From: Anderseniella sp. Alg231-50
GTDB lineage: Bacteria; Pseudomonadota; Alphaproteobacteria; Rhizobiales; Aestuariivirgaceae
Assembly (NCBI RefSeq): GCF_900149695.1
Contig: NZ_LT703003.1
Coordinates: 806,001-870,000 of the forward strand
Direction: 5' to 3'
DNA length: 64,000 nt
The notes under the pieces are model-generated. The model was not told the DNA's origin. It did no database searches and was given only the letters and a program-made list of their open reading frames with translations. Positions within the stretch are counted from its first letter, which is position 1. Every line of letters starts with the position of its first letter. Below are positions 34,001 through 50,409 of this stretch, piece by piece. Both the position numbers and the translations under genes were made by a program.

Positions 34001-34202
34001 CCTGCCGCTGATCCTGGAAGGCGGCGGGTTCTGGCCGCCGTTCGCCATGGCCATCGCCGGCGGGGTGCTGCTGTCGACGGTGGTGTCGTTCTTCTTCGTG
34101 CCACCGGCGTTTGCGCTGCTGACCAGATACGGCCGGCTGCCCGGCGCTGCGTCATCTGCAGAACAGCCCGACCCCGTCCCGGCGGCAGTACCTGCGACCT
34201 AG
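31065..34202 (+). CDS. RND efflux permease subunit (AcrB/HAE1-like)
   Basis: A 1045-residue RND pump with the typical twelve helices and two large periplasmic loops; N-terminal MSTLLYRNRRVFALVVVMML and QEDPTITN are typical. In TM4 the proton-relay motif reads LLVDGAIV (D403, G404), so AcrB D407 is kept but D408 is replaced by glycine. In TM10 the position of AcrB K940 is isoleucine (INAAIII, residue 933). The coupling network is therefore unlike AcrB's, though divergent RND groups share this. It is the second gene of the tetR-controlled operon; its stop overlaps the convergent aminotransferase stop. Substrates unknown. Confidence 0.92.
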   Translation: MSTLLYRNRRVFALVVVMMLATGLSALLTIGRQEDPTITNLFATVVTPYPGADPSRVEALVTEKIETELKEIPEIAEITSVSRSGISVVQVELSQFISDEKIEQSWSEIRDALSDAAREFPQGATQPEFDNDRTGAFTAIFALQPVIPDDTKIAIVQRIGEALQDRLRGVSGTKLVEIYGASPEEITVTIDTQRLTALGLTASAVSDAISQADTKVRAGQVRGKAMDLLIEVAGEIKALDRILAIPVKTGEQGLLVKVGDVAKVTRGLRRPTTSIAIIDGNPGILVAARMEDDLQVDAWSARISTAAQEFSETLPAGMKLEQLFDQAQYTSDRLSGVLQNMAIGTSLVIAVLFFTLGWRAAFIVAMVIPFATIVSIAGLQAAGIPIHQMSITGLIVALGLLVDGAIVMTDEVRKRLQAGADKLEAVDKAVRRLTIPLIASTATTVFAFMPMALLPGPAGDFVGSIALAVIIMLVVSLGLALTFTPALAGWMLPAGANGETRRGFAGGMSFGPIGRMFASILRTALRHPGLAIAASLMLPVIGFGSFQTLKPQFFPGVDRNQFYVQVKLADGTAISETQQVARKVERVIKAETQVSEVTWVVGESAPAFYYNMIGNQDGVSSFAEALVTTTSPQATEAMLDRLQKNLDGAAPEARVIVRGLVQGPPVNAPVEIRIVGQNLATLRELGEQVQLIMQQVPGIMITRTEIGAGAPKLKVELSEEKVRLAGMTLGQVAQQLEARLEGTTGGSIIEASEELPVRVRASDSGRGSVDAIASLDLSMPQTGQNIAGIPMDALGEMKVVPSETAIHRRNGERINTIQGFVERNVLPEQALQTVQRRIADSGLSLPPGYRLELGGDSDARDETLRNLLGPLGLIIALTVAAIFLTFGSYRLSLVAGLVSIMSMGLSLLALAIFQYPFGIQAVIGVIGSIGVSINAAIIILTALQANAGAMRGEISEMVAVVTGQSRHIVSTTLTTFGGFLPLILEGGGFWPPFAMAIAGGVLLSTVVSFFFVPPAFALLTRYGRLPGAASSAEQPDPVPAAVPAT

Positions 34203-35464
34203 TCCAACCTGACTGCCGCATACGAAATGGCGTCGACGGTCTGCTCGATGTCGGCCTCCGTCAGGGCCAGGCACGGATACAGCTTGCCGGGTGACTTGAA
34301 GATGCCCTTGTCGCGCAGCAGCTTGTTGAAGCGCAGGTTGCGGGCGGCATCTGCCTTGTACACGTCGCGATAGTCCTTGATTTTCGTTGATGTAAACAGC
34401 ACGTCGAACAGGGTCGGGTCGCCGACGATCTGGTGATCAAAACCGGCCTTGCCGAGATGTTCGGAAATGGCGTCCATCAGTGTCTTGCCGAGCGCGCGCA
34501 GTTTGTCGTACTGGCCGGGGCGGCGCAGGATTTCCATGGTCTTCATGCCGGCAACCGCCGCAATGGGGTTGCCGCTCAGCGTGCCGAGCTGCATCAGGAA
34601 CCCGTCGGCGCCGACCTTGGCCTTGTCGAAATGCGCCATGATGCCGGCCTTGCCGGCAATGGCGGCCAGCGGGAAGCCGCCGCCGATGATCTTGCCGAGC
34701 GTGCACACATCCGGGGTGACACCGTAAAGCTCCTGGGCACCGCCATAGGCGAAGCGGAAGCCGGTGACGATCTCGTCGAACACCAGCACGATGCCGTGCC
34801 TGTCGCATTCCTCGCGCAGCGCCTGCAGGAAGCCCGGCGCCGGCGGAATGACCCGTTGCAGCGGCTCCACGATGATGCCGGCGATCTCATGACCGTGCTC
34901 TGCGATCAGCGAGCGGGCAAACTCGATGTCGTTGAACGGCGCCACCAGCATCTCATCGCGCACGCCGGATGGAATACCGGCGGAATCCGGCACGGCGAGC
35001 GGGAAATTGGTGAGCTTGTCCGGCGCCAGGCTCATCTGGGCTTCGGCCGACATGCCGTGATAACCGCCTTCGAACTTCATGATCTTGTCACGACCGGTAA
35101 AGGCGCGCGCCAGCCGCATGGCGTACATGTCGGCCTCGCCACCGGAGGTCACATACCGGACCTGCTCGCCGCACGCCATGGCATCGCAAATCTGTTCCGC
35201 CAGTTCGATGCCGGCGGCATTGTTGGCAAAGAACGTCAGGCCTTTTGGCAGTTGCTCCTGCACTGCTTCAAGCACTTCCGGGTGACCGTGGCCCAGCAGC
35301 ATCGGACCTGAACCGATCAGGTAGTCGACATACTCGTTGCCGTCTTCATCCCAGACCCTGGAGCCCCTGCCCTCGCGAATGATGATGCCGGGATCGAAGT
35401 TGCCGAAACCGCCTGCCGGCAGTACGGCATTGGCCCGGTCAATCCAGCTGGTTTGCGACTTCAT
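34199..35464 (-). CDS. Class III aminotransferase family, glutamate-1-semialdehyde mutase-like
   Basis: A 421-residue PLP enzyme. Motifs: GSGPMLLGHGHP near residue 52-62, YVTSGGEADMYAMRLARA near 104, GGYHG (133-137), and FDEIVTGFR (229-237, D230 pairs with the PLP nitrogen). The PLP lysine is K258 in CTLGKIIGGGFP. The fold is shared by GSA aminomutase and omega-aminotransferases. A second, housekeeping hemL is not needed because this organism has a C4-pathway hemA at 53427, so this copy most likely acts on the amine catabolised by its operon. It is the last gene of the six-gene operon (10-base gap to the upstream enolase-superfamily gene). Confidence 0.87.
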   Translation of the reverse strand: MKSQTSWIDRANAVLPAGGFGNFDPGIIIREGRGSRVWDEDGNEYVDYLIGSGPMLLGHGHPEVLEAVQEQLPKGLTFFANNAAGIELAEQICDAMACGEQVRYVTSGGEADMYAMRLARAFTGRDKIMKFEGGYHGMSAEAQMSLAPDKLTNFPLAVPDSAGIPSGVRDEMLVAPFNDIEFARSLIAEHGHEIAGIIVEPLQRVIPPAPGFLQALREECDRHGIVLVFDEIVTGFRFAYGGAQELYGVTPDVCTLGKIIGGGFPLAAIAGKAGIMAHFDKAKVGADGFLMQLGTLSGNPIAAVAGMKTMEILRRPGQYDKLRALGKTLMDAISEHLGKAGFDHQIVGDPTLFDVLFTSTKIKDYRDVYKADAARNLRFNKLLRDKGIFKSPGKLYPCLALTEADIEQTVDAISYAAVRLD

Positions 35465-35474
35465 GATGATACTC

Positions 35475-36578
35475 CTAGTTCAAACGGGCTACAGGCGTCC
35501 CCATGCGGTCGGGATCAGGCGCCACCCCAAGACCTATACCTTCAGGCGGGGCAATACGGCCATCTTTCCGCACCGGGACGGTTTCGTCCAGCCTTGGTGA
35601 TACATAACCTGACAGGTCGCAGACATTCAGCAGGCTGGCCGGGACTGTCGATACGCCAAGATGCAACAGGGCTGCTGTCGTAACATCCGAGCCCCAGGTG
35701 TCTTCAACACACATTTTCGCACCCAGGTGCAGGCACAGGTCACGCGCCCGGCGCGAGGCACTCAGGCCGCCGAACTTGGACAGCTTGATCGCCACGGCAT
35801 CCATGCACGCCAGTTCATGAGCCTCAAGCAGGGACGCGATATCGTGGGCGCATTCATCCATTTTCATGGGCAGGCCGGTGGCGGAGCGGACCGCGGCGCA
35901 GTCTGCTATGGTCCGGCATGGCTGTTCGAGCATGATGTCGAGATGGGCAACGGCGCGCCCGACCCTGGTTGCATCCAGGCGCGACGCGCCACAGTTCCAG
36001 TCGCCATAGAGCAGCGGCCCGTCGCCGACGGCTTCACGCACCTTTATCAGGCGTTCGACATCCGCGCGCCAGTCGGCATCCGCCCCCAGCTTGGCCTGGA
36101 ACTGCCGGATGCCGGTCTTATGCGCCTCGCGCGCCATGCGGGCCATGTCGTCGGGTGACACGCAGGTTATGGAGTGATAGAGCGGCATGGTCTCTTGCCG
36201 AGCGCCACCCAGCAGGGCATGCAACGGCAGGCCCGCTGCCTGTGCCGTCAGGTCCCAAAGAGCAGTATCGACGGCGGACTTGGCGTAGTCGTGGCCGGGC
36301 AGGTAGGCATCAATCCGGTCCATGAGCGCTTCCGGCCCGACCGGGTCGGCGCCGAGAATAACCGGCGCCAGTTCCGCAAGTGCCGGAGCCACGCCGCGCG
36401 CATAGGCCGGCAGGTAATGCGGGATCGGGCACACCTCGCCCCAGCCGGAAAGCCCGGTATCGGTCTGAAGCCGCACAATGGCGGTTTCCACCGTGTCACA
36501 AGCCTTGCCGTCGGCCATGTAATAGGTCTCGTGACTGGTCAGCGGCACCAGCCACACCGTGATGGCGGTTATCTTCAT
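35475..36578 (-). CDS. Enolase superfamily enzyme with two catalytic lysines (HpbD/cis-3-hydroxyproline-dehydratase-like), first copy
   Basis: A 367-residue barrel enzyme. The catalytic pair is K163 (FQAKLG) and K265 (AIKLSKFG); metal ligands are D193 (GDWN), E218 (LEQP) and D241 (MDE). Such a bis-lysine site abstracts an alpha proton on either face. In this superfamily it is used by the muconate-lactonizing subgroup, by 4-hydroxyproline-betaine/proline-betaine epimerases (HpbD) and by cis-3-hydroxy-L-proline dehydratase. The operon also holds a Rieske-type partner and a dimethylglycine-dehydrogenase-like flavoprotein, which favours an amino-acid or betaine substrate. It starts six bases after the second copy. 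I cannot tell racemase from dehydratase by eye. Confidence 0.82.
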   Translation of the reverse strand: MKITAITVWLVPLTSHETYYMADGKACDTVETAIVRLQTDTGLSGWGEVCPIPHYLPAYARGVAPALAELAPVILGADPVGPEALMDRIDAYLPGHDYAKSAVDTALWDLTAQAAGLPLHALLGGARQETMPLYHSITCVSPDDMARMAREAHKTGIRQFQAKLGADADWRADVERLIKVREAVGDGPLLYGDWNCGASRLDATRVGRAVAHLDIMLEQPCRTIADCAAVRSATGLPMKMDECAHDIASLLEAHELACMDAVAIKLSKFGGLSASRRARDLCLHLGAKMCVEDTWGSDVTTAALLHLGVSTVPASLLNVCDLSGYVSPRLDETVPVRKDGRIAPPEGIGLGVAPDPDRMGTPVARLN

Positions 36579-36584
36579 CGCACC

Positions 36585-37691
36585 CTACTCATACACTGCC
36601 ACCGGATCGCCGAGTATGGCCTCGTCCGGATCGCAACCGAGCCCGGGCGTGTCATCGACGGTCAGAATGCCGTTCTCGGTGCGGCAGCCCCGGCCCGGCG
36701 CCACGTCCACCGTCAGCATGTCCTGGCACGACCAGGAGGCGCGGATAAACTCTTCAGGGATCGACTGGGCCAGGTGGGCCGCTTCGGTGTCTGCCATCAC
36801 CGAGCCGCCGGTGGCCATCACGAAAATCTGGATGCCGTGGGCCAGCGCCACGTCGCGCATGCGCCTGGCCTTGGTCAGGCCACCGACCCGGTTGAGCTTG
36901 ATACCGAAGACCTCGGCGATACCGTCACGGGCGATACGGCAGGCGTCCTGCAGCGTCACCAGGGTTTCATCGACGCTGATCGGTGACGTGGTCAGTTTTC
37001 GAATTTCCGCGATGTCGTCGAGCGTCTCGCCGGGTTGCTCGAAGGTCACGCCGAGGTCGGCAACCGCGTTCATGACGATGTTGGCTTCGCGCCGGGTCCA
37101 GGCCCGGTTAACGTCATAGAGCACGACCTCGCCGGGTCTGCGGTTGGCCTCGATATGGCGGATGCGCTCGATGTCCGCATCGACATTGCCGCCGACCTTG
37201 GCCGAATGCGCCACATAGCCCTGTTCGCGATACCTGTTGATGATGCCCATCATGTAATCCGGGTCGCCCGATGATACGGATGATGCCGCCGGTGTGCCGG
37301 TATCGCGCTTGCCACCGAGCAGGTCGGCGATGGGCAGGCCGCATGCCTTGCCCATGATGTCCCAGCAGGCCAGGTCCACCGGCGCCTTGGCATAGAGATG
37401 GCCGGGCAGGCACAGGTCCATGGCCCGCTCGACAAGCTCCACCTGGCGCGGATCCCGGCCCAGGATGACAGGGGCCATGGTCTCCATCCCGGCGCGGATG
37501 CCGGGCCCGTGCGCGGGCACATAGGTGTGCCCCCAGGGTGTGCCTTCACCCCAACCGGTCAGACCGGCATCGGTTTCAAGCTTGACGAAGGTGGCATCGA
37601 GCACCTCGAACTTGAGCCGGCCTCCCGACAGCCAGTACGGGTCAGCCAACGGCAGGTCCTTCTGGAAGACTGAGATGCGGGTGATTTTCAT
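36585..37691 (-). CDS. Enolase superfamily enzyme with two catalytic lysines, second copy
   Basis: A 368-residue paralogue of the 35475-36578 gene with the same site spacing: K165 (HSAKVGG), D193 (YDVNR), E218 (FEQP), D241 (VDET) and K265 (GIKLNRVGG). It differs through most of the capping domain, for example PWGHTYVPAHGPGIRAGME, which is close in pattern to the PVGPTYAPSHALG of HpbD as I remember it. The capping domain makes the substrate pocket, so the two copies probably act at different steps or on different isomers. It overlaps the upstream MDR gene by four bases (ATGA). Confidence 0.82.
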   Translation of the reverse strand: MKITRISVFQKDLPLADPYWLSGGRLKFEVLDATFVKLETDAGLTGWGEGTPWGHTYVPAHGPGIRAGMETMAPVILGRDPRQVELVERAMDLCLPGHLYAKAPVDLACWDIMGKACGLPIADLLGGKRDTGTPAASSVSSGDPDYMMGIINRYREQGYVAHSAKVGGNVDADIERIRHIEANRRPGEVVLYDVNRAWTRREANIVMNAVADLGVTFEQPGETLDDIAEIRKLTTSPISVDETLVTLQDACRIARDGIAEVFGIKLNRVGGLTKARRMRDVALAHGIQIFVMATGGSVMADTEAAHLAQSIPEEFIRASWSCQDMLTVDVAPGRGCRTENGILTVDDTPGLGCDPDEAILGDPVAVYE

Positions 37692-38773
37692 ATGATGGTG
37701 ACCACGATATTGCCGGTGTGTTTCTTGTCGATGAAGGCCTGCTGGGCATCGTGAAGCTGTTCCAGCGGGTACGTTGCCGCAAGCGCCGGTTTCACTTCGC
37801 CACGCTCAATGTAGCCGACCAGATCGGCAAACACGCCGGGCGGAACGATGGTGGCACCGGTAAAGGTCAGGTCGCGCAGATAGAATGTGCGCAGATCCAT
37901 TTCCACCATGGGTCCGGCAATGGCACCGGCGCAGGTGTAGCGCCCGCCCCGGTCGAGCGCGTCAATCAGTTGCGGCCAGTAGCTGCCGCCGACAACATCC
38001 GCCACCACGCTGACGGTGTCGCGGCCAATGGCCTGCTTCAGGGCCTGTTTCAGATTGCCAGGCGCGCGGTCCAGTATGGCATGGGGCTCGAAGCCGGATA
38101 CCGCATCGTGCTTGGATCTACTGGCCATGGCGATGCTTGTCGCCCCACGCCGGTTGGCGAGCTGGATCAGCGCTGAACCGACACCACCGGATGCGCCGGA
38201 AATGAGAACTGTGTCACCTTCCGCAACATTGGCACGGTTGAGCATGTTCTCTGCTGTGATCCAGGAGGTGGCAAATGTCGCCAGTTCCGCATCGGAAAGG
38301 TCGCTGTTGACCGGGTGGACATAGCGCTCGTCAATTTTCAAATACTCGGCATATCCACCGTCGCATTCGGACCCGAAATAACCTATTTTTGACAAGTTGA
38401 GCGGGTCATCCCAATCGCGCAACCATGTCTCAATCAACACCCGCTTGCCGATCAGACTGTCAGACCCGGCAATGACGGTGCCGCAGACATCGGCGCCCTG
38501 GATACGCGGGAACGTGATCGGTGCGCCACCCCACGTGGCATCGTCGTCGTCGGCGCTGTCGAAGGCACCCCCGGTTGTGTTCTCACTGACACCCTTGGAG
38601 TACCACGCCGTGCGGGTGTTCACGTCGGTATTGTTGAGGCCGCAGGCATGCACCTTGACCAGCACCTCACCGGTGCCTGGAACCGGTACCGGCCAGTCGG
38701 TATGGTAGACGAGCTTGTCCATGTCGCCGTGGCCGGTGAGCACGAAGGCTTTCATTTTGTCAGGAATGTTCAT
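37688..38773 (-). CDS. MDR-superfamily NAD(P)H dehydrogenase/quinone oxidoreductase-like
   Basis: A 361-residue medium-chain dehydrogenase. The catalytic domain has ACGLNNTDVNTRTAWYSKG and the Rossmann part the glycine pattern LISGASGGVGSALIQLA (near residue 195-212) with an arginine two strands later (ASRSKHDAV), which favours NADP. The zinc-binding cysteine cluster of classical alcohol dehydrogenases is absent, so this is the zinc-free quinone-oxidoreductase side of the family. It probably oxidises or reduces a pathway intermediate. It is coupled by four-base overlaps to the genes on both sides. Confidence 0.85.
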   Translation of the reverse strand: MNIPDKMKAFVLTGHGDMDKLVYHTDWPVPVPGTGEVLVKVHACGLNNTDVNTRTAWYSKGVSENTTGGAFDSADDDDATWGGAPITFPRIQGADVCGTVIAGSDSLIGKRVLIETWLRDWDDPLNLSKIGYFGSECDGGYAEYLKIDERYVHPVNSDLSDAELATFATSWITAENMLNRANVAEGDTVLISGASGGVGSALIQLANRRGATSIAMASRSKHDAVSGFEPHAILDRAPGNLKQALKQAIGRDTVSVVADVVGGSYWPQLIDALDRGGRYTCAGAIAGPMVEMDLRTFYLRDLTFTGATIVPPGVFADLVGYIERGEVKPALAATYPLEQLHDAQQAFIDKKHTGNIVVTII

Positions 38774-41220
38774 TGGGCTGGCTCCAGTGCGGCATCGGTT
38801 CGAGGTAACAGGCTGTGCGGATCATAAGCCGGTTCACCCATCACACACGCGGGACGCGGTTCGCCGGCAATGACCACTTCCAGCCTGGTGCCGGGCTCGG
38901 CGGCCTGCGGTTTGATATAGGCAAATGCCAGAATTTTCCCGACCGTATGACCATAGGCGACGGACGCAGTCGAGCCGACGACCTGGCCCTCGTGCAGCAC
39001 GGCTTCGCCGCCATTGCCGTCCCAGACGCCATCCGGCTCGATGGCGATATAGGCGCACACCCAGGGCAGCGGCCTGTCGAGACTATCCTGCGTCTGCTGC
39101 CTGCCGAAGAACTGCTTTTCCATTTTGACAAAACGCATGACACCGGCTTCCGGCAAGGTCACTTCATTGGTCAGTTCGCCTGCGCCCTGGAACATCTTTT
39201 CCATGCGCAGGATGTTCATGGCGAACGAACCGTAGTCTGCCAGTCCGTGCGCTTCACCTGCGGTACACAACGCGTCATAGATGCCCGGCATGACGTCGCG
39301 GGGACCGTGAAACTCCCAGCCTAGTTCTCCCGCGTAGGACATGCGGAATGCCCACACGGTGTGTCCGGCAATGTCGATCTCACGCGCCGACATCCAGCGG
39401 AACCTGGCATTGTCCAGCGGGGTATCAGTGCAGGCTGACAGGATATCGCGTGACCTTGGCCCGTTGAGTGTCAGGGCCGCCCAGCCATCGGACCGGTTGG
39501 TGATCTGCAGGTCCTCGTCGTCACGATGCCGTGCGAGATGATCCAGCAGGCGCTGTTCGAAGAAGGCGGCACACACCAGGTAGAAGCGGTCTTCAGCAAG
39601 ACGCACGATGGTCAGTTCAATCTCGATGCGGCCACGGCGGTTGAGCAGGTGGGTCAGCGCGATACCGCCTGTGTTCTTCGGCAGGCGGTTCGGCGCCAGG
39701 CCGTCAAGGAAGCGTTCCGCATCCGCACCGGACACTTCGACCTTGGTGAAACCGGTGATGTCCATGATACCGGCACGCTCACGCACCGCTTTTACTTCCG
39801 CCGCCAGCAGGTCATGGATTTCGGTGCGCCGGAAGGAGTAGTAGTCACGCTGTTCGATGCCACCGGTTGCGAACCAGCGCGGGCGCTCATGACCATAGAC
39901 CTCCTCATACACCGCGCCCCTGGCCTTCAGTTTTTCATAAAGCGGGCCGGGCTTTACCGGCCGGCCGGTCGGCCGGTTGAAATGCGGGAACGGGATTTCG
40001 TGGCGCAGGCAGTAGTCCTCCTTTGCCTTGACCACCTGCCAGTCCTTGCCGGCATAGGCGCCGAAGCGGCGCGGATCGTATTCGCGCATGGAGATGTCCG
40101 CAGCGCCATGCACCATCCAGCGAGCCAGTTCACGCGACAGGCCGGGCCCCCAGCCGATGCCGATCTGGGTGCCGCAGCAGCACCAGTAGTTTTTGACGTC
40201 CGGTGCCGGACCGATCAGCGGATTGCCGTCGGGGGGATGCGAGATGGCGCCGTGCACTTCGCGCTTGATACCCAGTTCGGCGAAGACCGGCATGCGGCCC
40301 ATGGCGTTTTCCAGCCATGGCATGATGCGGTCATAGTCGGCGGCAAACAGCTCGTTTTCGGCTTCCCACGGGCAATGATCTTCCCACACCGTATTGGGAT
40401 TTTCCTTTTCATAGATACCGATCAGGCCGGACTTCTGCTCCATGCGGATATAGCCGGATACCAGTTTGTCGTCACGGATGACCGGCAGCTCTCTCTCAAG
40501 CTCCAGGAACTCCGGCACCGTGTCGGTGACCAGGTAGTGATGGGTCATCGAGGTCATCGGCAGTTGCAGGCCTGACCACTCCCCCATCTGCCGGGCATAG
40601 GTGCCGCCTGCATTGACGACATGCTCACAGACAATATCGCCGTGTTCCGTCGACACTTTCCATTCACCACCCGGCAATTGCACTATGTCGGTGGCGCGGC
40701 AGTGGCGGATGATCTTCGCACCCAGCCTGCGGGCGCCTGCCGCCATGGCCTGGGTAACGCCTGAAGGATCGACATGGCCGTCATCCGGCGTGTACAGCGC
40801 ACCGATGACACCGTCGAGATTGTAGAACGGGTGCAGTTCGGCGATCCTGGCCGGACCGACCAGCTCGATATTGAAGCCCAGAGAGCGTCCGACAGACAGT
40901 GTCTGGCGCAGCCAGTCCATCTCGTCTTCGGTGTAGGCCAGCCTGAACGACCCGCAGCCATGCCAGGTCACCGAATGGCCGGTCTCCGCCTCCAGCTTCC
41001 CGGCGTACAGGCCGATATTGTAATCGACACACTTGCCGAGACCGAAGCTGGACGTGGAGTGGGTGATCTGGCCGGCGGCGTGCCAGGTGGAGCCCGACGT
41101 CAGTTCAGCCTTTTCCAGCAGGACAATGTCGCTCCAGCCCTCATGGGCCAGGTGATAGGCAATGCCGCAGCCCATGACGCCACCACCAACGATCACTACC
41201 CGGGCATGAGACGGCACCAT
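38770..41220 (-). CDS. FAD-dependent dimethylglycine/sarcosine dehydrogenase-like demethylase with GcvT domain
   Basis: An 816-residue two-part flavoprotein. Residues about 8-370 are a DAO-type FAD domain: VVIVGGGVMGCGIAYHLA, then SGSTWHAAG where H47 lies at the position that carries covalent FAD in dimethylglycine dehydrogenase. A FAO_M-like middle part follows (to about 430). Residues about 440-800 resemble the tetrahydrofolate-binding GcvT domain (GIMDITGFTKVEVSGADAER, AYAGELGWEFHGP-type SYAGELGWEF). Family members oxidise N-methyl groups and pass the carbon to THF. It is the first gene of the minus-strand operon, has GGAGTG before ATG 41220, and is divergent from the RpiR regulator. Its exact N-methyl substrate is unknown. 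Confidence 0.9.
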   Translation of the reverse strand: MVPSHARVVIVGGGVMGCGIAYHLAHEGWSDIVLLEKAELTSGSTWHAAGQITHSTSSFGLGKCVDYNIGLYAGKLEAETGHSVTWHGCGSFRLAYTEDEMDWLRQTLSVGRSLGFNIELVGPARIAELHPFYNLDGVIGALYTPDDGHVDPSGVTQAMAAGARRLGAKIIRHCRATDIVQLPGGEWKVSTEHGDIVCEHVVNAGGTYARQMGEWSGLQLPMTSMTHHYLVTDTVPEFLELERELPVIRDDKLVSGYIRMEQKSGLIGIYEKENPNTVWEDHCPWEAENELFAADYDRIMPWLENAMGRMPVFAELGIKREVHGAISHPPDGNPLIGPAPDVKNYWCCCGTQIGIGWGPGLSRELARWMVHGAADISMREYDPRRFGAYAGKDWQVVKAKEDYCLRHEIPFPHFNRPTGRPVKPGPLYEKLKARGAVYEEVYGHERPRWFATGGIEQRDYYSFRRTEIHDLLAAEVKAVRERAGIMDITGFTKVEVSGADAERFLDGLAPNRLPKNTGGIALTHLLNRRGRIEIELTIVRLAEDRFYLVCAAFFEQRLLDHLARHRDDEDLQITNRSDGWAALTLNGPRSRDILSACTDTPLDNARFRWMSAREIDIAGHTVWAFRMSYAGELGWEFHGPRDVMPGIYDALCTAGEAHGLADYGSFAMNILRMEKMFQGAGELTNEVTLPEAGVMRFVKMEKQFFGRQQTQDSLDRPLPWVCAYIAIEPDGVWDGNGGEAVLHEGQVVGSTASVAYGHTVGKILAFAYIKPQAAEPGTRLEVVIAGEPRPACVMGEPAYDPHSLLPRTDAALEPAQ

Positions 41221-41266
41221 TGATTTTCACTCCGGCAGAGTTGTTTTGCGATGGACAACAGCTATC

Positions 41267-41278
41267 GTACAATTGTAC
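41267..41278. promoter_or_regulatory. Palindromic operator candidate of the RpiR regulator
   Basis: GTACAATTGTAC is a perfect 12-base palindrome in the 69-base gap between the divergent demethylase (start 41220) and RpiR (start 41290) genes. A position between two divergent promoters suits a shared operator. A second weaker inverted pair (GTTGT / ACAAC, 41240-41259) lies beside it. Confidence 0.55.
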
Positions 41279-41289
41279 ACTCGTCAATC

Positions 41290-42201
41290 ATGAATGATAT
41301 AAACGTACCATTATCCGACCAATTCGCTCCGCCTGACCTTCTCGGCAGGCTGACCACGGAACTTGCCAGCCTGACGCCGGAAGTGCGCAAGGCGGCTACC
41401 TTCGTGCTGGAAAACCCCAACGAAGTGGGCGTCAGCTCGATACGTGAAATCGCCACGGCAGCGGATGTAAAACCCAACACGCTGGTGCGCATGGCCAGGG
41501 TCCTGGGCTTTGACGGCTATGAGGATTTCCGCGAACCGTTTCGCGATGAGATCAGGCGCGGCACCGCCAGTTTTCCCGACCGGGCGCGCTGGCTGCAGTC
41601 GATCAGCCAGTCCGGCAAGCTGGGCAGCCTGTACGCCGACATGGTCAATTCCGCCCTGCGCAACATCGAGGAGACTTTCGCCGGCATCGACGAGACGGCG
41701 CTCAAGTCAGCCGCCGACGACATCTGGGCATCGCGGCAGGTGTTTGTGCTGGGTGTCGGGGTCAACAATTCAAACGCCCGCAACTTCACCTACCTGGCAT
41801 CGACCGGCATGGAACAGTTCCACCCGATTCCGAAGCCCGGCAGCACGGCCGTCGATGACCTGGCGCGCGCCGATGACCGCGACGTGCTGATCGCGATCAC
41901 CTGCAAGCCGTATCGCAGCGAGGTGGTCGAGGCGGTTCGCATTGCGCGCGAACAGGGACTGACCATTGTCGGCATGTCAGACAGCCCGGCCTCGCCGATC
42001 GTCGCCGGATCGCAGCACGGTTTCGTGGTGGCCGCCGACACGCCGCAGTTCTTCCCGTCATCGGTGTCAACCATCGCGCTGCTGGAGACGCTTCTGTCAT
42101 TCGTCATCGCATCTGCCGACAGCGAGATTGTCGGGCGCGTCAAGAAATTCCACGAACGCCGTCACGAGCTGGGCATTTACGTGGAGGAGGAGGCAGGCTG
42201 A
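41290..42201 (+). CDS. MurR/RpiR-family transcriptional regulator
   Basis: A 303-residue regulator. Residues about 20-85 form the RpiR helix-turn-helix (VRKAATFVLENPNEVGVSSI, REIATAADVKPNTLVRMARV, LGFDGYEDFREPF). The rest, about 120-280, is a SIS sugar-isomerase-like effector domain (VFVLGVGVNNSNARNFTYLA, LIAITCKPYRSEVV, IVGMSDSPASPI). I prefer ATG 41290; an in-frame ATG at 41251 would leave only 30 bases to the divergent gene and would put the palindrome inside the coding region. RpiR regulators often sense phosphorylated sugars, but betaine and amino-acid catabolic clusters also use them. The next gene starts two bases after it. Confidence 0.87.
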   Translation: MNDINVPLSDQFAPPDLLGRLTTELASLTPEVRKAATFVLENPNEVGVSSIREIATAADVKPNTLVRMARVLGFDGYEDFREPFRDEIRRGTASFPDRARWLQSISQSGKLGSLYADMVNSALRNIEETFAGIDETALKSAADDIWASRQVFVLGVGVNNSNARNFTYLASTGMEQFHPIPKPGSTAVDDLARADDRDVLIAITCKPYRSEVVEAVRIAREQGLTIVGMSDSPASPIVAGSQHGFVVAADTPQFFPSSVSTIALLETLLSFVIASADSEIVGRVKKFHERRHELGIYVEEEAG

Positions 42202-42203
42202 CC

Positions 42204-43295
42204 ATGTCCGGCAAGTCAAACCCCACCAGATCGCTTGATGCGCGCTACTACACCGATCCGGAGGTCTTCCGGATCGAAACTCAAGGCCTGTTCAAGCGCA
42301 CCTGGCAATTTGCCGGGCACGTCTCCCAGGTGGAGAATACCGGTGATTATTTCACCTTCTCGATGGCGGGTGAAAACCTGTTCTGCATAAGAGGCAAGGA
42401 CGGTGCGATAAATGCCTACTACAATGTCTGCCAGCATCGCGCCCATGAACTCGTAACCGGCGAAGGAAATACCCGGCTGGTGGTGTGTCCCTATCATGCC
42501 TGGACTTACGAGCTGTCCGGCCAGTTGCGGTCAGGGCCGAACATCCAGTCGGTGCCCGGTTTTGACCGCTCGGACATCTGTCTGACAACGGTGCGCATCG
42601 AGGAGTTCTGCGGCTTTCTGTTCGCCAATCTCGACCCGGACGCGGAACCGATGGACGCGTGGTTTCCCGATGTGCGCGAACAGCTTGCCGCATTCGTTCC
42701 CCATCATGGCAGGCTGAAACATGTCGAATGGGTGGAGATTCCCGAAAACTGCAACTGGAAAGTGTCCATAGAAAATTATTCCGAATGCTATCACTGCAAG
42801 CTCAATCACCAGACGTTTTCAACAGGTGTGGTGAAGCCGGAAACCTATGACATCCAGCCGCAAGGACATTGCCTGCGCCACACCACCGAATGCCAGAATC
42901 TCGACCGGATGAGCTATGCAATCGATTTGCAGGCGAACGAACACGCAGGCGAATACTCGTCGTGGTTCCTGTGGCCGATGTTCTCGTTCCAGGTCTATCC
43001 CGGCAATGTGCTCAACACCTACCACTGGCGCGCTGTTGACGCTGATCACGTGGTGGTCTGGCGCGGCTGGTACACGATCGACGGTGCGAAATCCGATGTG
43101 ATCAGCAAGCTTGCCGTGCAGGATCGCGAAACAACGGTGGAAGAAGACATCCATCTGGTTGAATCGGTCCAGCGGGGTTTGAGATCATCGGGTTACCGGC
43201 CCGGCCCGCTGGTGGTCGATCCCGACTGCGGCGTCAATTCGGAGCACTCGGTCGAAAAACTTCAACAATGGATGCGGGAAGCAGTAGATGGATAA
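42204..43295 (+). CDS. Rieske non-heme iron oxygenase, betaine demethylase-type (GbcA/CntA-like)
   Basis: A 363-residue oxygenase alpha subunit. The Rieske [2Fe-2S] ligands are C76 and H78 (CQHRAHEL) and C95 and H98 (CPYHAW). The mononuclear iron site appears in NYSECYHCKLNHQTF (E-x-x-H-x4-H with a later aspartate expected near residue 300). The overall pattern recalls glycine-betaine, carnitine and proline-betaine monooxygenases, which take off one N-methyl group as formaldehyde. It has no reductase partner next door, so that must be encoded elsewhere. It is two bases after RpiR and overlaps the next gene by eight bases. The substrate is inferred from context. Confidence 0.9.
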   Translation: MSGKSNPTRSLDARYYTDPEVFRIETQGLFKRTWQFAGHVSQVENTGDYFTFSMAGENLFCIRGKDGAINAYYNVCQHRAHELVTGEGNTRLVVCPYHAWTYELSGQLRSGPNIQSVPGFDRSDICLTTVRIEEFCGFLFANLDPDAEPMDAWFPDVREQLAAFVPHHGRLKHVEWVEIPENCNWKVSIENYSECYHCKLNHQTFSTGVVKPETYDIQPQGHCLRHTTECQNLDRMSYAIDLQANEHAGEYSSWFLWPMFSFQVYPGNVLNTYHWRAVDADHVVVWRGWYTIDGAKSDVISKLAVQDRETTVEEDIHLVESVQRGLRSSGYRPGPLVVDPDCGVNSEHSVEKLQQWMREAVDG

Positions 43296-43668
43296 GACTT
43301 TATTTGAAAAGGGCCTGGCCAAGCGCAAGTCGACACTGGGCGACGAGTACGTGGAGAAAAACCTTGCCGCCGCGGATGATTTCAACCGGCCGTTCCAGGA
43401 GGCCATGACCGCCTGGTGCTGGGGCTTCGGCTGGGGCGACGAAACCATAGACGCAAAGACCCGCTCGATGATGAACCTCGCCATGATCGGCGCCCTGGGC
43501 AAGATGCACGAATGGGAAATCCATTGCCGCGGCGCCATCACCAACGGCGTCAGCGTTGAAGAGATTCGGGCCATTATCCATGTCATCTCGATTTATTGCG
43601 GCGTACCGCAAGGCGTTGAGTGCTTCCGGGTGGCCCGCAAGGTTCTTGAAGAGCTGGACCTGATCTAG
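43288..43668 (+). CDS. Carboxymuconolactone decarboxylase-like protein
   Basis: A 126-residue protein with the CMD fold: a long helical run (FQEAMTAWCWGFGWGDETID, AKTRSMMNLAMIGALGKMHE, WEIHCRGAITNGVSVEEIRA). It lacks the CxxC redox pair of AhpD, and its H-E-W-E-I-H pattern resembles the carboxymuconolactone-decarboxylase subgroup. It could act on a ring or lactone intermediate, or scavenge peroxide; the role here is unknown. It overlaps the Rieske gene by eight bases. Confidence 0.85.
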   Translation: MDKTLFEKGLAKRKSTLGDEYVEKNLAAADDFNRPFQEAMTAWCWGFGWGDETIDAKTRSMMNLAMIGALGKMHEWEIHCRGAITNGVSVEEIRAIIHVISIYCGVPQGVECFRVARKVLEELDLI

Positions 43669-43684
43669 GTCAGGCCTCCAGCTC
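43651..43684. terminator. Hairpin spanning both convergent stop codons
   Basis: An inverted repeat with two stacked arms: GAGCTGG (43651-43657) with CCAGCTC (43678-43684), and CCTGA (43659-43663) with TCAGG (43670-43674). It covers the stop of the CMD gene and the stop of the ABC ATPase gene, which lie one base apart. It may be a bidirectional terminator built from coding sequence; there is no T-run. Confidence 0.5.
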
Positions 43685-45409
43685 GGGCATGCGGAAGCCG
43701 CGAAACTTCGGCATCAGCTTGAGCAGGTGCTTGGTGTAGTCGTGCTGCGGATCGGTAAACAGGGTTTCCGTCGGTGCAACCTCCAGTAACTGGCCATGAC
43801 GCATGACGCCGACCCGGTCGCAGACCTGACGGATCACCGGCAGGTCATGGGAGATGAACAGCATGGTCAGGTTGAGTTCCGACTGCAGGTCCTTCAGCAG
43901 GTTCAGAACCTGGGCCTGGATCGATACATCAAGCGCTGATGTCGGTTCGTCGCAGATCAGGAACCGGGGCCGCGTGGCAAGGGCGCGGGCGATTGAAATG
44001 CGCTGGCGCTGGCCGCCGGAGAACTCGTGCGGAAACTTGCGTGCTGCCTGGGCGCCCAGGCCGACCACATCCAGCAGGTCATGCATGATCTGGCGGGCTT
44101 CCTGCTGGTCATAGGCCATTTTGTGGAAATGGATGGGCTCTTCGATGATGTCTTCCACCCGCATGCGCGGATTGAGCGATGAGAACGGATCCTGGAAGAT
44201 CATCTGCATCTGACGGCGGAACGGCGCGGCTGCGGCACGGGATTCCAGTGCGGTCATGTCGGTACCGTCGAACGAGATGGTGCCGCCCGACGGCTTGTAA
44301 ATGCCGGTGATCATCCGGGCGATCGTCGACTTGCCGGAGCCTGACTCGCCCACCAGTCCAAACACCTCGCCGGGCTGGATGGCGAACGACACATCTTTCA
44401 CGGCATCGAGATACAACCGTCGCGAAGGAAACAGCGAGTGGCGCGTGATGAAGCGCATGTGCGCATCCTGCAACTCGACCAGGTTGCCGGTGAGCTTGTG
44501 CTCCTCGCGCGCCTTGCCGAGCCAGTGGGTGGCCAGGTTCAGGCCTTCAGGCCGCTCCTCGGCATCCTCGATATAGGTGACCAGCGGAAACCGCTTCAAC
44601 CGCTTGTCCGGGCGCGGCACGGCGGAGATTAGGCTCTTGGTATAATCATGGGTTGGCTTTGACATGATCTGCTGCGTGGTGCCGGTTTCAACCACCCGGC
44701 CGCGATACATCACGGCCACCCGGTCGGCGGTTTCGGAAATCACGCCCATGTCGTGGGTGATCAGGATCATGCCGACCTGGCGGTCACGGCACAGCGCCTT
44801 CATCAGATCGAGAATCTGCGCCTGCACCGATACGTCCAGTGCCGTTGTCGGTTCATCGGCAATGACCAGTTCCGGATCGGCACACAGCGCCAGGGCAATC
44901 ACCACGCGCTGGCGCATGCCGCCGGAGAACTGGTGCGGGTATTGCGCGATACGTACGTCGGGATCAGGAATTCCAACCTGGTCGAGCAGGTCAACCGCAC
45001 GGGCACGGGCTTCGGCTTCGGCCAGGTTGAGATGACGCTGGATGGTGTCGACAAGCTGACGCTCAATGGTCTGCAGCGGGTCCAGCGAGGTCAGCGGATC
45101 CTGGAAGATCATGCCGATGCGGGCACCGCGTATCTTGCGCTGGGCAGCATCATCGAGATGGTCGATACGGTCGCCCTTCAGCAGGATGCTGCCTTCGGTC
45201 ATTTCGCCGGGCGGTTCCAGCAGGCCGATCACCGCATTGCCGATGGTTGACTTGCCGGCGCCGGATTCACCGACAACACCGAGGATTTCACCCGGCTCGA
45301 CCGTCAGGTCCAGCCGTTCAACGGCAACAACGTGACCGCGGCGGCTGGGAAACTCCACCCTCATGCCTTCAATGGTGAGCAGGCTGTTATGTTCCACGTC
45401 GGCCTTCAT
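43670..45409 (-). CDS. ABC transporter, fused dual ATPase (DppD-DppF type), second system
   Basis: A 579-residue double ATPase. First half: Walker A GESGAGKSTIGNAVIG near residue 49, signature FSGGMRQRVV, Walker [13 protein letters not shown]. Second half: [16 protein letters not shown] near 357, [28 protein letters not shown]. It resembles the fused ATPase at 9183 but is not a recent copy: linkers and specificity loops differ throughout. It ends the importer set that begins at 49035. It overlaps its permease by four bases. Confidence 0.93.
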   Translation of the reverse strand: MKADVEHNSLLTIEGMRVEFPSRRGHVVAVERLDLTVEPGEILGVVGESGAGKSTIGNAVIGLLEPPGEMTEGSILLKGDRIDHLDDAAQRKIRGARIGMIFQDPLTSLDPLQTIERQLVDTIQRHLNLAEAEARARAVDLLDQVGIPDPDVRIAQYPHQFSGGMRQRVVIALALCADPELVIADEPTTALDVSVQAQILDLMKALCRDRQVGMILITHDMGVISETADRVAVMYRGRVVETGTTQQIMSKPTHDYTKSLISAVPRPDKRLKRFPLVTYIEDAEERPEGLNLATHWLGKAREEHKLTGNLVELQDAHMRFITRHSLFPSRRLYLDAVKDVSFAIQPGEVFGLVGESGSGKSTIARMITGIYKPSGGTISFDGTDMTALESRAAAAPFRRQMQMIFQDPFSSLNPRMRVEDIIEEPIHFHKMAYDQQEARQIMHDLLDVVGLGAQAARKFPHEFSGGQRQRISIARALATRPRFLICDEPTSALDVSIQAQVLNLLKDLQSELNLTMLFISHDLPVIRQVCDRVGVMRHGQLLEVAPTETLFTDPQHDYTKHLLKLMPKFRGFRMPELEA

Positions 45410-46347
45410 CTGAGTTTGGGGTTCAATGCGTCACGCAGCCAGTCGCCTAAAAGGTTGATGGCCAGCACCAGCAGCACCAGGGCTATGCCGGGGAAGATGG
45501 TGATCCACCATTCACCGGAAAACAGGAAGTCGTTGCCGATGCGGATCAGGGTGCCGAGCGACGGCGTCGTCGGCGGCACGCCGACACCGAGGAACGACAA
45601 GGTCGCTTCGGTAATGACCGCAATGGCCAAATGGATGGTGGCGATCACCAGGACCGGACCCATGACATTGGGCAGGATATGCCGCCACAGAATGATGAGC
45701 GGGCCAATGCCGATGACCCTGGCAGCCTGCACATATTCCTTGTTCTTTTCAACCAGTGTTGAGCCGCGGACGGTGCGTGCATACTGCACCCAGCCGGATA
45801 TCCCGATGGCGAAGATCAGCACGTAAAACACCAGGTCCTGGTGCATTTCGCGCGGCAGCACGCCACGTGCGACACCGTCGATCAGCAGGGCAATCAGGAT
45901 GGCCGGGAACGACAACTGAATATCGGCCACGCGCATGATGAAGGCGTCCAGCCGGCCACCGACATAACCGGAAATCAGGCCCAGCGAGATGCCGAGGATC
46001 ATCGAAAATATGACCGACGCAAATCCGACAAACAGCGAGATCCGGGCGCCGAATATGATGGTTGAGAAAATATCACGGCCCTGATCATCGGTGCCGAGCC
46101 AGAACCGCGGATCACTGCCTTCCATCCAGGCCGGCGGCAGGCTGGCATCCATGATGGAAATCGAAGCCAGGTCAAACGGATTATGCGGCGCAATCCAGTT
46201 GGCGAATAACGCAGACACGAAAAACAGGATGGTCAAAATGGCGGATACAATAGTCACCGGTGAGCGGCGGAAGCTGTACCACAGGTCACTGTCAAGCGCC
46301 CGGGCAAGCCAGCTCTTCTGAATGTTTTGTGCCGTTGTGTCAGTCAT
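45406..46347 (-). CDS. ABC transporter permease, DppC type, second system
   Basis: A 313-residue permease: N-terminal helix VTIVSAILTILFFVSALFAN, the LGTDDQGRDIFSTIIFGARI motif typical of DppC, and the EAA loop EYVQAARVIGIGPLIILWRH. I place the start at ATG 46347 (MTDTTAQN), which leaves 16 bases after the upstream stop; a longer frame would overlap that gene by 50 bases. It overlaps the ATPase gene by four bases. Confidence 0.92.
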   Translation of the reverse strand: MTDTTAQNIQKSWLARALDSDLWYSFRRSPVTIVSAILTILFFVSALFANWIAPHNPFDLASISIMDASLPPAWMEGSDPRFWLGTDDQGRDIFSTIIFGARISLFVGFASVIFSMILGISLGLISGYVGGRLDAFIMRVADIQLSFPAILIALLIDGVARGVLPREMHQDLVFYVLIFAIGISGWVQYARTVRGSTLVEKNKEYVQAARVIGIGPLIILWRHILPNVMGPVLVIATIHLAIAVITEATLSFLGVGVPPTTPSLGTLIRIGNDFLFSGEWWITIFPGIALVLLVLAINLLGDWLRDALNPKLR

Positions 46348-46363
46348 TGCCGCCCCCAAATCC

Positions 46364-47344
46364 TCAGTGCCCGCCGGCGCTGTCAACGCGCAGGCGAGGA
46401 TCAACGACCACATAGAGCATGTCGACGATCAGGTTGATCACCACGAAGAAAAACGCAATCAGCACCAGGTAGGCCGCCATGATGGGAATATCGACATTGC
46501 CCACCGCCTGAATGAACAGCAGCCCCATGCCCGGCCACTGGAACACGCTTTCGGTGATGATGGCGAACGCAATGATCGATCCCAGTTGCAGGCCGGTGAT
46601 GGTGATCACCGGCACCATGGTGTTTTTCAGCGCCACAACGAAGTTCACATAACGCTCCGCCAGGCCGCGGGCACGGGCGAATTTCACGAAATCGGTGCGC
46701 ATGACTTCCAGCATTTCAGAGCGCACCAGCCGCATGATCAGTGTCATCTGGAAAAGCGCAAGCGTAATGGACGGCATGATCAGCGATTTGAGGCCGGACG
46801 CCGTCAGCAGCCCGGTCGACCACCAACCGAGCTGAACCACATCGCCGCGCCCGAAAGTCGGCAGCCAGCGCAACACCACGCCGAACAGCAGGATCAGCAA
46901 TATGCCGATCAGGAATGTCGGCAGCGATATGCCGACCAGCGACAACGTCATGAAGGAATGCGACAGCCAGCTGTTTCGCCGGATGGCCGTATAGACGCCC
47001 ATGGGGATACCGATGGCCATGGCCAGAAACGCAGATACGATCGAAAGCTCAAGCGTTGCCGGCAGGCGTTCGGCGATCAAGTCGGATACCGGCCTGCGAT
47101 GCTGGTATGAGAAGCCAAAATTGCCCTGGGCGGCATTGACGGCAAACCGGCCGAACTGAACAATGAAGCTGTCATTCAGGCCAAGCTTCTCCTTCAGTTC
47201 CACGCGCTCTTCCAGGGATGTGTCCTGGCCAACCATATTGTTGATCGGGTCACCTACATAGCGAAACAGCGAAAAGGCGATCAGCCCCACAGTCAGCATG
47301 ACCAGGATTGACTGCACGAGCCGTTTTGCAATGAAGGTAAGCAT
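46364..47344 (-). CDS. ABC transporter permease, DppB type, second system
   Basis: A 326-residue permease: N-terminal FIAKRLVQSILVMLTVGLIA, the RYVGDPINNMVG stretch, about six helices, and the EAA loop DFVKFARARGLAERYVNFVV. The start is ATG 47344; a TTG nine bases upstream is in frame. It follows the binding-protein gene after 92 bases containing a strong hairpin, the same arrangement as in the 9183-14323 system. Confidence 0.92.
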   Translation of the reverse strand: MLTFIAKRLVQSILVMLTVGLIAFSLFRYVGDPINNMVGQDTSLEERVELKEKLGLNDSFIVQFGRFAVNAAQGNFGFSYQHRRPVSDLIAERLPATLELSIVSAFLAMAIGIPMGVYTAIRRNSWLSHSFMTLSLVGISLPTFLIGILLILLFGVVLRWLPTFGRGDVVQLGWWSTGLLTASGLKSLIMPSITLALFQMTLIMRLVRSEMLEVMRTDFVKFARARGLAERYVNFVVALKNTMVPVITITGLQLGSIIAFAIITESVFQWPGMGLLFIQAVGNVDIPIMAAYLVLIAFFFVVINLIVDMLYVVVDPRLRVDSAGGH

Positions 47345-47376
47345 AAGATCCAATCACACTGAATGCGTATTATGGA

Positions 47377-47413
47377 CCGGACCATCCGTCAGATGAGCTG
47401 ATGGATGGTCCGG
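47377..47413 (-). terminator. Intercistronic hairpin between binding-protein and permease genes, second system
   Basis: A 16-base stem (CCGGACCATCC plus TCAG with CTGA plus GGATGGTCCGG) with one mismatch (47388/47402) and a five-base loop. It lies 23 bases after the binding-protein stop and 32 bases before the permease start. There is no T-run, so message stabilisation or partial termination is likelier than a full stop. Confidence 0.65.
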
Positions 47414-47436
47414 CCGGGATTGTAGGTGATCAGTGG

Positions 47437-49035
47437 TTACTTCTTGACCACTGCGTAGCGCAGATCGAACTGGTTGTCGGGGCGCTGGACCACCTCAACC
47501 TTGTCCGACACACCCCATGACAGCGGCTGCTGGTGCAGCGGAATGTGACCGACTTCGTCCTGGTGGAGCTTGAACACCTCGTCGATCATTGCCTGACGCT
47601 TTGCCTGATCTGTTTCAGACTGGATCTTGGCAGTCAGTTCATTGATCTTCGGATTGCAGTAGCCGCCGAGATTGAACGAACCGATCTTGTCTTCACCACC
47701 ACGGCAGGCGATGAGCGACGAGATCACGTTATGGCTGTCAAAGGTCGACGGTGTCCAGCCGAGCAGGAAGAAGCTCGTGTCATAACCGTTCTGGGCAAGC
47801 ACCTTGCCGAAATATTTCGACTTGGTCTGGGCCAAGAGGTTCACCTTGACGTTGATCTTGGCCAGCATGGCGGCCGATGCCTGGCAGATCTGCTCGTCGT
47901 TGACATAACGATCATTCGGGCAGTCCATGGTGACTTCAAAGCCGTCGGCATAGCCTGCCTCTTCCATCAGCTTCTTGGCAGCTTCGACATCATAGGCCGG
48001 ACGGGCGTTCATGGCTTCGCTGTAGCCATTGATCTGTGGCGCCACCATCAGACCTGCCGGGATGGACGCACCGCGCATCACCTTCTGCTGGATGGCGTCG
48101 ACGTTGATCGCATGCATGAACGCCTTGCGCACACGCACGTCCTTGAACGGGTTCTTGCCCTTGATGTTTGACGTTGTCAGCTCATCGCGCAGCTGGTCGA
48201 AGCCGAGGAAGATGGTACGGGCTTCCGGACCTGCCAGCGGCTTCACGCCTTCAGCGCTTTCAAGCCGCTTCCAGTCCTGCACCGGCATCGGATAGGCGAG
48301 ATCGACATTGCCTGAAATCAGCGCTGCCACCCGGGTTGCATCCTGGGCAATCGGGGTAAAGATCGCCTCGGTGACATTGGACTTCATATCCTTGTCCCAA
48401 TAGTCGGGATTACGGGTCAACACGGTTTTGACGCCGGTCTGGCGCGACTTGACGATAAACGGGCCGGTGCCGTTGGCGTTCAGATTGGCATGGTTGCCTT
48501 CGTCGCCGCCCTTCACATTGGTGGCTTCAGTGGCCTTGTTCTCCTCGGCCCACTGCTTGTCCATGATGTAGAAGATTTCAAACTGGTTCGGCAGGATCGG
48601 ATTTGGCGTCGGGGTGATGATGTCGACCGTCAGGTCATCAACAGCCTTGGCCTCCTTGATCAGGGCCGCCACCACTTTCATGTCGGAGCCTTCGGTGTTC
48701 AGCCGGTTGACCGAGAACACCACGTCTTCAGCGGTCAGGTCATTACCATTGTGGAACTTGACACCGGGACGCAGTTTGAAGCGCCACACGGTCGGCTCGA
48801 TGTTCTCCCAGCTTTCGGCCAGCGCGCCGACGATTTCCATCTTATCGTTGCGCTTGACCAGGCCTTCATAAATGTTGCCCTGGAAACCAAGTGTCAGCGT
48901 TTCAAAAAGCCCGTGCGGGTCAAGCGTCTGGGCGTCGCCCTGGAATGCCCACCTGAACGTTTCGGCATTTGCCGCGCTCGCCCCGGCCACAATCGTTGTG
49001 CCCACCAGCAATGCTTTAAGTGTTTTACCTAACAT
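47437..49035 (-). CDS. ABC transporter substrate-binding protein, peptide/nickel family 5, second system
   Basis: A 532-residue family-5 receptor. Signal peptide of about 24 residues (MLGKTLKALLVGTTIVAGAS, cleavage near ANA-ETFR), then WRFKLRPGVKFHNGNDLTAE near residue 85 as the family signature. It is only distantly similar to the 12740 receptor. The ligand cannot be read. The genes upstream (amidohydrolase, M20 amidohydrolase, ThDP enzyme) are consistent with an acylated or amide-linked compound. AGGGAG lies before the ATG. Confidence 0.9.
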   Translation of the reverse strand: MLGKTLKALLVGTTIVAGASAANAETFRWAFQGDAQTLDPHGLFETLTLGFQGNIYEGLVKRNDKMEIVGALAESWENIEPTVWRFKLRPGVKFHNGNDLTAEDVVFSVNRLNTEGSDMKVVAALIKEAKAVDDLTVDIITPTPNPILPNQFEIFYIMDKQWAEENKATEATNVKGGDEGNHANLNANGTGPFIVKSRQTGVKTVLTRNPDYWDKDMKSNVTEAIFTPIAQDATRVAALISGNVDLAYPMPVQDWKRLESAEGVKPLAGPEARTIFLGFDQLRDELTTSNIKGKNPFKDVRVRKAFMHAINVDAIQQKVMRGASIPAGLMVAPQINGYSEAMNARPAYDVEAAKKLMEEAGYADGFEVTMDCPNDRYVNDEQICQASAAMLAKINVKVNLLAQTKSKYFGKVLAQNGYDTSFFLLGWTPSTFDSHNVISSLIACRGGEDKIGSFNLGGYCNPKINELTAKIQSETDQAKRQAMIDEVFKLHQDEVGHIPLHQQPLSWGVSDKVEVVQRPDNQFDLRYAVVKK

Positions 49036-49138
49036 GGTCTTTTTCTACTCCCTGTTGCTAACCATTTTTAGTTTGATCGAAGCCTACCCCTAAAGCGACA
49101 CAATCTGCAATTGCGGACTTGAGGATTTGAATTCTTGC

Positions 49139-50389: not shown

Positions 50390-50409
50390 CAGCCCCAGCT
50401 CCCTATGTT

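Follow-up and report, generated by a model that had tools for sequence, protein, structure and literature searches.

A pair of divergent operons of Anderseniella sp. Alg231-50 is described here. The operons comprise eight intact genes at positions 34199-43668 of a 64-kb segment of contig NZ_LT703003.1 (the window, i.e. the whole stretch of DNA analysed). An earlier reading of the same DNA, the original prediction, took the cluster for an undescribed catabolic pathway for N-methyl or quaternary amino acids. All eight genes are found where it placed them and their domains agree, which confirms its observation; its interpretation is partly supported. Judged from the sequences, the genes probably form two regulated operons for the catabolism of a quaternary ammonium carboxylate, in other words a betaine carrying an acidic hydrogen beside its carboxylate group. 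No description of the pathway was found in the open-licence literature searched.

Proteins of the operon pair

The five minus-strand genes are transcribed in the order DMG, MDR, EN2, EN1 and AT, and the three plus-strand genes in the order RPIR, RSK and CMD. By open reading frame (ORF) coordinates, operon mates either overlap by 4-8 bases or are separated by 2-10 bases.

RSK (42204-43295, plus strand, 363 amino acids) displays Rieske and Ring_hydroxyl_A domains. Its nearest match is the carnitine monooxygenase CntA (198 bits, residues 14-355), which supports the proposed N-methyl or quaternary amine pathway and places the protein with betaine-type Rieske oxygenases and not with aromatic-ring enzymes. 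The next matches are 3N0Q (125 bits), deposited as a putative aromatic-ring dioxygenase, Stc2 (118 bits) and characterised aromatic oxygenases (up to 108 bits); for these the best match is confined to the first ~205-223 residues. The iron site reads E-x2-H-x4-H, and its bridging residue is Glu, a feature shared by CntA, Stc2 and 3N0Q. Aromatic-ring Rieske enzymes have Asp at this position.

The second demethylase, DMG (38770-41220, minus strand, 816 amino acids), is dimethylglycine-dehydrogenase-like and of the FAD/folate type, with DAO, FAO_M, GCV_T and GCV_T_C domains. Its similarity to human dimethylglycine dehydrogenase (DMGDH; 5L46) extends over the full length (514 bits, residues 5-798), in agreement with the earlier assignment. 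The motif TWHAAG begins at residue 45 and is present in 48 of 50 family rows; we take its His to be the covalent-FAD residue.

AT (34199-35464, minus strand, 421 amino acids, PF00202 (Aminotran_3)) is a class III aminotransferase resembling glutamate-1-semialdehyde aminomutase (GSAM). A role as the haem-pathway GSAM was considered and rejected: AT misses the GSAM model cut-offs (385 versus 398 bits and 365 versus 527 bits), and the genome has a 5-aminolevulinate synthase at 53427-54722 (676 bits, cut-off 339), so that AT need not serve haem. MDR (37688-38773, minus strand, 361 amino acids) is a medium-chain reductase/dehydrogenase with PF08240 (ADH_N), PF00107 (ADH_zinc_N) and PF13602 domains; it reads GAD at the position of GHE, a motif of zinc alcohol dehydrogenases. 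CMD (43288-43668, plus strand, 126 amino acids, PF02627) belongs to the carboxymuconolactone-decarboxylase family. An aromatic pathway of the PcaC type was also rejected, as CMD lies below the PcaC model cut-off (118 versus 156 bits) and no further pca-like gene is found among the eight.

EN1 (35475-36578, 367 amino acids) and EN2 (36585-37691, 368 amino acids), both on the minus strand and both with MR_MLE N- and C-terminal domains, are bis-lysine enolase-superfamily enzymes, as had been proposed. Alignments show that each retains both catalytic lysines and all three metal ligands, and these residues are invariant in all family rows of EN1 (48), EN2 (38) and two further families, EN3 (16) and EN4 (5). 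The cis-3-hydroxyproline dehydratase family (LhpJ in PMC5144071) provides the best structure for EN1 (264 bits) and has the same catalytic and metal residues, but EN1 falls in a separate clade and is 38% identical to the member of the dehydratase family encoded elsewhere in its own genome. The best structure for EN2 is 3EEZ (579 bits).

The original prediction had further described the pair as being of the HpbD/cis-3-hydroxyproline dehydratase kind. This holds as far as affinity is concerned, since the cis-3-hydroxyproline dehydratase model gives 323 bits with EN1 and 335 bits with EN2, and the best sugar-acid dehydratase model only 71 and 84 bits. It is not supported for identity: both proteins miss the dehydratase cut-off of 500 bits and form clades of their own. 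In a 34-row tree, whose deep-fork order is not settled, EN1 and EN3 (each 100/100), EN2 (100/99) and EN4 (96/93) are supported clades, with 3EEZ and 2QDD on the EN2 branch and 2PCE on the EN4 branch. HpbD, 4E8G and an enzyme from the Anderseniella genome (L143) form a clade at 100/100, and the cis-3-hydroxyproline dehydratase 4MGG groups with another enzyme of that genome (L142) at 98/95; EN1 and EN2 fall elsewhere. L142 passes the dehydratase cut-off with 530 bits. Seven further enolases of the genome form a separate group; five are best matched by sugar-acid models and two have no model match at E 1e-40. An assignment of EN1 and EN2 as sugar-acid dehydratases was rejected on account of the low model scores and the separate tree position.

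A Trp of HpbD, which presumably provides a cation-pi contact at the quaternary ammonium site, is present in 38 of 38 EN2 rows. The same site reads Cys then Asp in all 48 EN1 rows, Thr-Asp in EN3 and cis-3-hydroxyproline dehydratase, and Ser-Ala in L142. Because EN2 keeps the Trp, it would act on the quaternary form; we weakly infer that EN2, an accessory enzyme, binds a quaternary amine and that EN1, the core enzyme, would epimerise or dehydrate an N-H amine.

The operons might instead serve a hydroxyproline-betaine or proline-betaine pathway, with EN1 and EN2 standing in for HpbD and cis-3-hydroxyproline dehydratase. Among characterised enolases, 4MGG and HpbD are indeed the nearest, the Trp of HpbD is retained in EN2, and Rieske demethylases are known in such pathways. 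We nevertheless regard this as unlikely, given that EN1 and EN2 are separated from the clades of both reference enzymes, that neither reaches the dehydratase cut-off, and that the genome already has a cis-3-hydroxyproline dehydratase and an HpbD-clade enzyme elsewhere. To our knowledge these routes involve no class III aminotransferase. The HpbD clusters of Pelagibaca and Paracoccus are like the window in having a bis-lysine enolase of the same subgroup, a Rieske oxygenase and betaine N-demethylation; the window differs by its enolase clades, DMGDH-type demethylase, class III aminotransferase and MDR, and its relatives differ by several enolases and the cupin DddQ. Elsewhere in the Anderseniella genome, a second MDR, 47% identical to that of the window, lies directly before the HpbD-clade enolase L143 (L146:5891-8088; C1, ~447-449 kb), so the pairing of MDR and enolase recurs.

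Conservation, modules and regulation

A scan of genome contigs with EN1 as bait yielded 65 loci, and Rieske, DMG and EN1 are all present in 47 of these. An aminotransferase is found in 46 of the 47, either AT (39) or the distantly related AT2 (7; 27% identity); L054 has neither. The association tests below defined a complete locus as one with an aminotransferase, L054 being admitted, and dropping this condition gives the same 47 loci. Several of the other 18 loci are cut at contig or locus ends. The diverged DMG, RPIR and Rieske genes that belong to L048 lie beyond the fetched stretch (they are seen in L120), L088 is frame-broken, and core genes are missing from four Hellea loci, L060 and L091.

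As EN1 was itself the bait, an independent-bait test was run on 325 Rhodobacteraceae genomes passing a 97% completeness filter. Counts are lower bounds (the best three candidates per genome in one search, the best six in another). EN1 is present in at least 48 and DMG orthologues (≥57% identity) in at least 52 of the genomes. Among the matches listed, 46 of 48 EN1 genes have a DMG orthologue no more than 16 kb away, and for the other two DMG is on another contig. The neighbourhood of EN1 and DMG is more than chance.

In a class-wide sample of 389 Alphaproteobacteria genomes, the Anderseniella genome included, EN1 orthologues (≥66%) were found in eight genomes from six families, and there was no EN1 match between 42% and 66%. 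Four genomes placed in the genus of the window carry the locus. Loci are also found in gammaproteobacterial metagenome-assembled genomes (MAGs; L054, L060, L062 and L081). Because the spread is patchy, horizontal transfer is suggested. A Pelagibacteraceae MAG (L088) has a diverged, frame-broken version with EN1, Rieske, aldehyde dehydrogenase (ALDH), EN2 and MDR; a homocysteine S-methyltransferase-family gene lies near it.

The loci vary in their accessory genes. EN2 and MDR are both present in 34 of the 47, both absent in eight and found one without the other in five; p=2e-5 is only a guide, because the loci are related and the association tests treat them as independent. EN3 (17 of 17 loci) and DddQ-family cupins (17 of 17) occur only where EN2 is present. 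The number of enolases ranges from one to four in the 47 loci and is six in a Neomegalonema locus (L048/L120). An ALDH stands beside the operon in 18 loci and CMD in 22; the nearest model for the ALDH is betaine-aldehyde dehydrogenase (408 bits, below the cut-off of 669). L042 and L084 are the smallest loci; of the genes sought they contain Rieske, RPIR, DMG, EN1 and AT and no others. Arylmalonate-decarboxylase-like and sulfotransferase-like genes are seen together beside the operon in 13 of the 47 (e.g. L054:6370-7992), and the first alone in four. At E 1e-10 none of the ALDH, DddQ, arylmalonate-decarboxylase-like, sulfotransferase-like and small-cupin families is matched in the window.

We conclude that Rieske, the DMGDH-like enzyme, EN1 and the aminotransferase form a fixed core; EN2, MDR, EN3 and DddQ appear to form an optional branch for elimination and reduction. 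The wide distribution, the range of one to six enolases, the DddQ neighbourhood and the optional EN2-MDR module all go beyond the original prediction.

RPIR, an RpiR-family regulator with HTH_6 and SIS domains, is found in 47 of the 47 loci. Its listed ORF starts at 41251. The homologous proteins begin with MNDxNV or similar, which suggests a start at 41290, with the gene ending at 42201 on the plus strand and 69 bases (41221-41289) left between the operons, where promoters presumably lie. This region contains the palindrome GTACAATTGTAC (41267-41278), the sole match to GTACAWWTGTAC at one mismatch or fewer in the window (0.14 expected). In 49 divergent regions, window included, the best site has at most one mismatch in 22, two in 14 and three or four in 13; three of the regions are near-identical sister sequences. 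Base-shuffled controls, which preserve base content only, gave no site below two mismatches. GTACAATTGTAC is read as a putative RpiR operator, and RPIR would control both operons through GTACAWWTGTAC. A second conserved core next to the palindrome was rejected, as it consists mostly of RpiR start codons.

Genes for an Opp-type ABC transporter, a prolidase-like amidohydrolase, an M20 hydrolase and a thiamine pyrophosphate enzyme adjoin the cluster at 43670-53353. They were rejected as parts of the system because the transporter linkage is limited to the genus (≥60% identity, beside the cluster in no loci but L027, L028 and L030, which all come from the genus of the window) and because no palindrome match lies within 43670-53353. 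The transporters beside related loci, surveyed by eye, are mixed and give no clue to the substrate.

The DddQ connection

DddQ-family cupins are found in 17 of the 47 loci, in 14 with ≥46% identity to one or other of two references and in L033, L052 and L067 with 33-36%. The family (f16) is identified by L047:6272-6850, which matches DddQ structures (229 bits), and by a PF16867 hit to another member. Up to two copies are present per locus in the 47, and three in L050 and L074. The product of L031:8317-8895, from Ruegeria lacuscaerulensis ITI-1157, is the crystallised DddQ of 4LA2 and 5JSO (identical at 192 of 192 residues), and its gene sits between MDR and EN2 of the operon. In R. lacuscaerulensis the roseobacter dddQ neighbourhood is thus the same locus. 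The window copy is without DddQ, the N-demethylation core occurs without it in 30 of the 47 loci, and the Anderseniella genome has no DddQ match at E 1e-15. A linkage of dddQ to MDR was already noted in PMC3338564. The locus is a variant of betaine catabolic operons with enolase-superfamily enzymes, in which the DddQ link is new.

In the 325 Rhodobacteraceae genomes there are at least 54 DddQ-family matches in at least 44 genomes, and at least 24 of these, from at least 19 genomes, have EN1 or DMG no more than 16 kb away. EN1 and DddQ occur together in 22 genomes, more than chance would give, EN1 alone in 26, DddQ alone in 22 and neither in 255 (Fisher p 1e-9, uncorrected for kinship). Nineteen stretches holding 21 of the 30 remaining DddQ matches were inspected. 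In six of them a further gene of the pathway is found at ≥50% identity: CMD, MDR, ALDH, EN2/EN4, or the arylmalonate-decarboxylase-like gene with the sulfotransferase-like one. The other 13 have none, and hence DddQ also lives outside the pathway.

It is conceivable, if doubtful, that the DddQ-family 'dimethylsulfoniopropionate (DMSP) lyases' arose, and within these operons still serve, as beta-elimination enzymes of a pathway for N-methylated carboxylates, the release of the climate gas dimethyl sulfide (DMS) being a side activity towards the sulfur analogue. The natural substrates would then be beta-onium carboxylates in which a stereocentre adjoins the carboxylate. The 2-substituted beta-alanine betaines, which include the head group of DGTA, a betaine lipid of algae, are an example. 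DddQ, EN2 and EN3 would eliminate, MDR would reduce, Rieske and DMG would demethylate and EN1 would epimerise; the class III aminotransferase would then yield a semialdehyde, with ALDH and the arylmalonate-decarboxylase-like enzyme of the relatives finishing the route. The Km of DddQ for DMSP is reported as 22 mM (PMC5395565), and the enzyme as more efficient with dimethylsulfoxonium propionate than with DMSP (PMC10686828). PMC5395565 also reports that DMSP induces dddQ and that dddQ mutants lose 97% of DMS production in R. pomeroyi and 20% in R. nubinhibens; the induction and the 97% loss speak for a real role in DMSP metabolism. DddQ and DddP are also given there as the most abundant bacterial DMSP lyase genes in Global Ocean Sampling data. 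Should the operons indeed serve a betaine, the genomes give cause to test the true function of DddQ.

That the operon as a whole serves DMSP or other dimethylsulfonio compounds, with DddQ marking the substrate class and the N-demethylases recruited, is improbable. The cupins in 17 of the 47 loci and the mutant and induction data would fit; the 30 loci, the window and its genome without DddQ, and the high Km, do not. In addition, PMC3338564 reports that none of the strains examined had dddQ close to acuI and that an E. coli yhdH mutant did not regain acrylate resistance when given the MDR gene from the dddQ cluster of R. nubinhibens. A Rieske/DMGDH pair also seems ill-suited to sulfonium demethylation.

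A candidate route for betaine breakdown

The gene set plausibly fits an aerobic betaine-demethylation route. The Rieske oxygenase would take off one methyl group as formaldehyde, and the DMGDH-like flavoprotein would pass the remaining methyls to folate. EN1 would then take the alpha-proton from the demethylated amine, most likely in an epimerisation, and the class III aminotransferase would convert the primary amine to an aldehyde for oxidation by ALDH. In an optional branch, EN2 would act on the still-quaternary form, epimerising it or eliminating a beta-substituent, and MDR would reduce the double bond left behind; EN3 and the DddQ-family lyases of related loci would widen this branch to further substrates or isomers. 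The glycine betaine route (GbcA, DMGDH, sarcosine dehydrogenase) likewise has a Rieske step followed by DMGDH-like folate demethylation, but RSK lies far below the GbcA cut-off (159 versus 670 bits), and enolases and an aminotransferase have no role there.

Several points weigh against the betaine route. Class III aminotransferases favour terminal amines; the substrates of HpbD-like enolases and DMGDH are alpha-N compounds, and one substrate suiting all the enzymes is not obvious. AT could instead turn out to be an ammonia-lyase or a racemase, both of which occur in its fold, and MDR reductases usually use CoA esters or enones. The cluster has no Rieske reductase, and the palindrome, with its single match in 64 kb, ties no transporter of the window to the operon. 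The beta-7 Asp of the enolases is variable, with Cys in its place in 9 of the 48 rows for EN1 and Ala in 28 of the 38 for EN2, and our view of the pocket from its Asp and Trp is an interpretation. EN1 orthologues (61-64%) are also found without the other core genes in Hellea (L075, L077, L079 and L080), so EN1 can serve another route.

A carnitine-type route, in which RSK and DMG demethylate carnitine or butyrobetaine, the aminotransferase acts on a gamma-amino acid, and enolase and MDR interconvert hydroxy, unsaturated and saturated forms, would suit the CntA match, the class III aminotransferases and betaine-aldehyde/aminobutyraldehyde-like ALDH of relatives, and the EN2-MDR coupling, but it too is improbable, as EN1, always with the core, would find no stereocentre next to the carboxylate, and we know of no enolase that dehydrates a free beta-hydroxy acid of the carnitine kind.

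If the betaine reading is true, a widespread marine betaine-like pathway awaits assignment. The regulator and enzymes of the locus lend themselves to joint assay, and with five genes L042 and L084 offer a small target for substrate discovery.

Two further gene neighbourhoods were noted. In Hellea L080, the only Hellea locus annotated, EN1 is flanked by genes for a GhrA-like reductase, a class II aldolase-family protein, a PhyH/HalD-like oxygenase and a dehydrogenase of the tartronate-semialdehyde/3-hydroxyisobutyrate type. In the Anderseniella genome, the L142 dehydratase stands alongside an Opp-type binding protein and an ALDH (L147:7105-14658; C1, ~78-86 kb); by eye, an FAD oxidoreductase and a protein similar to the trimethylamine methyltransferase family are also present there.

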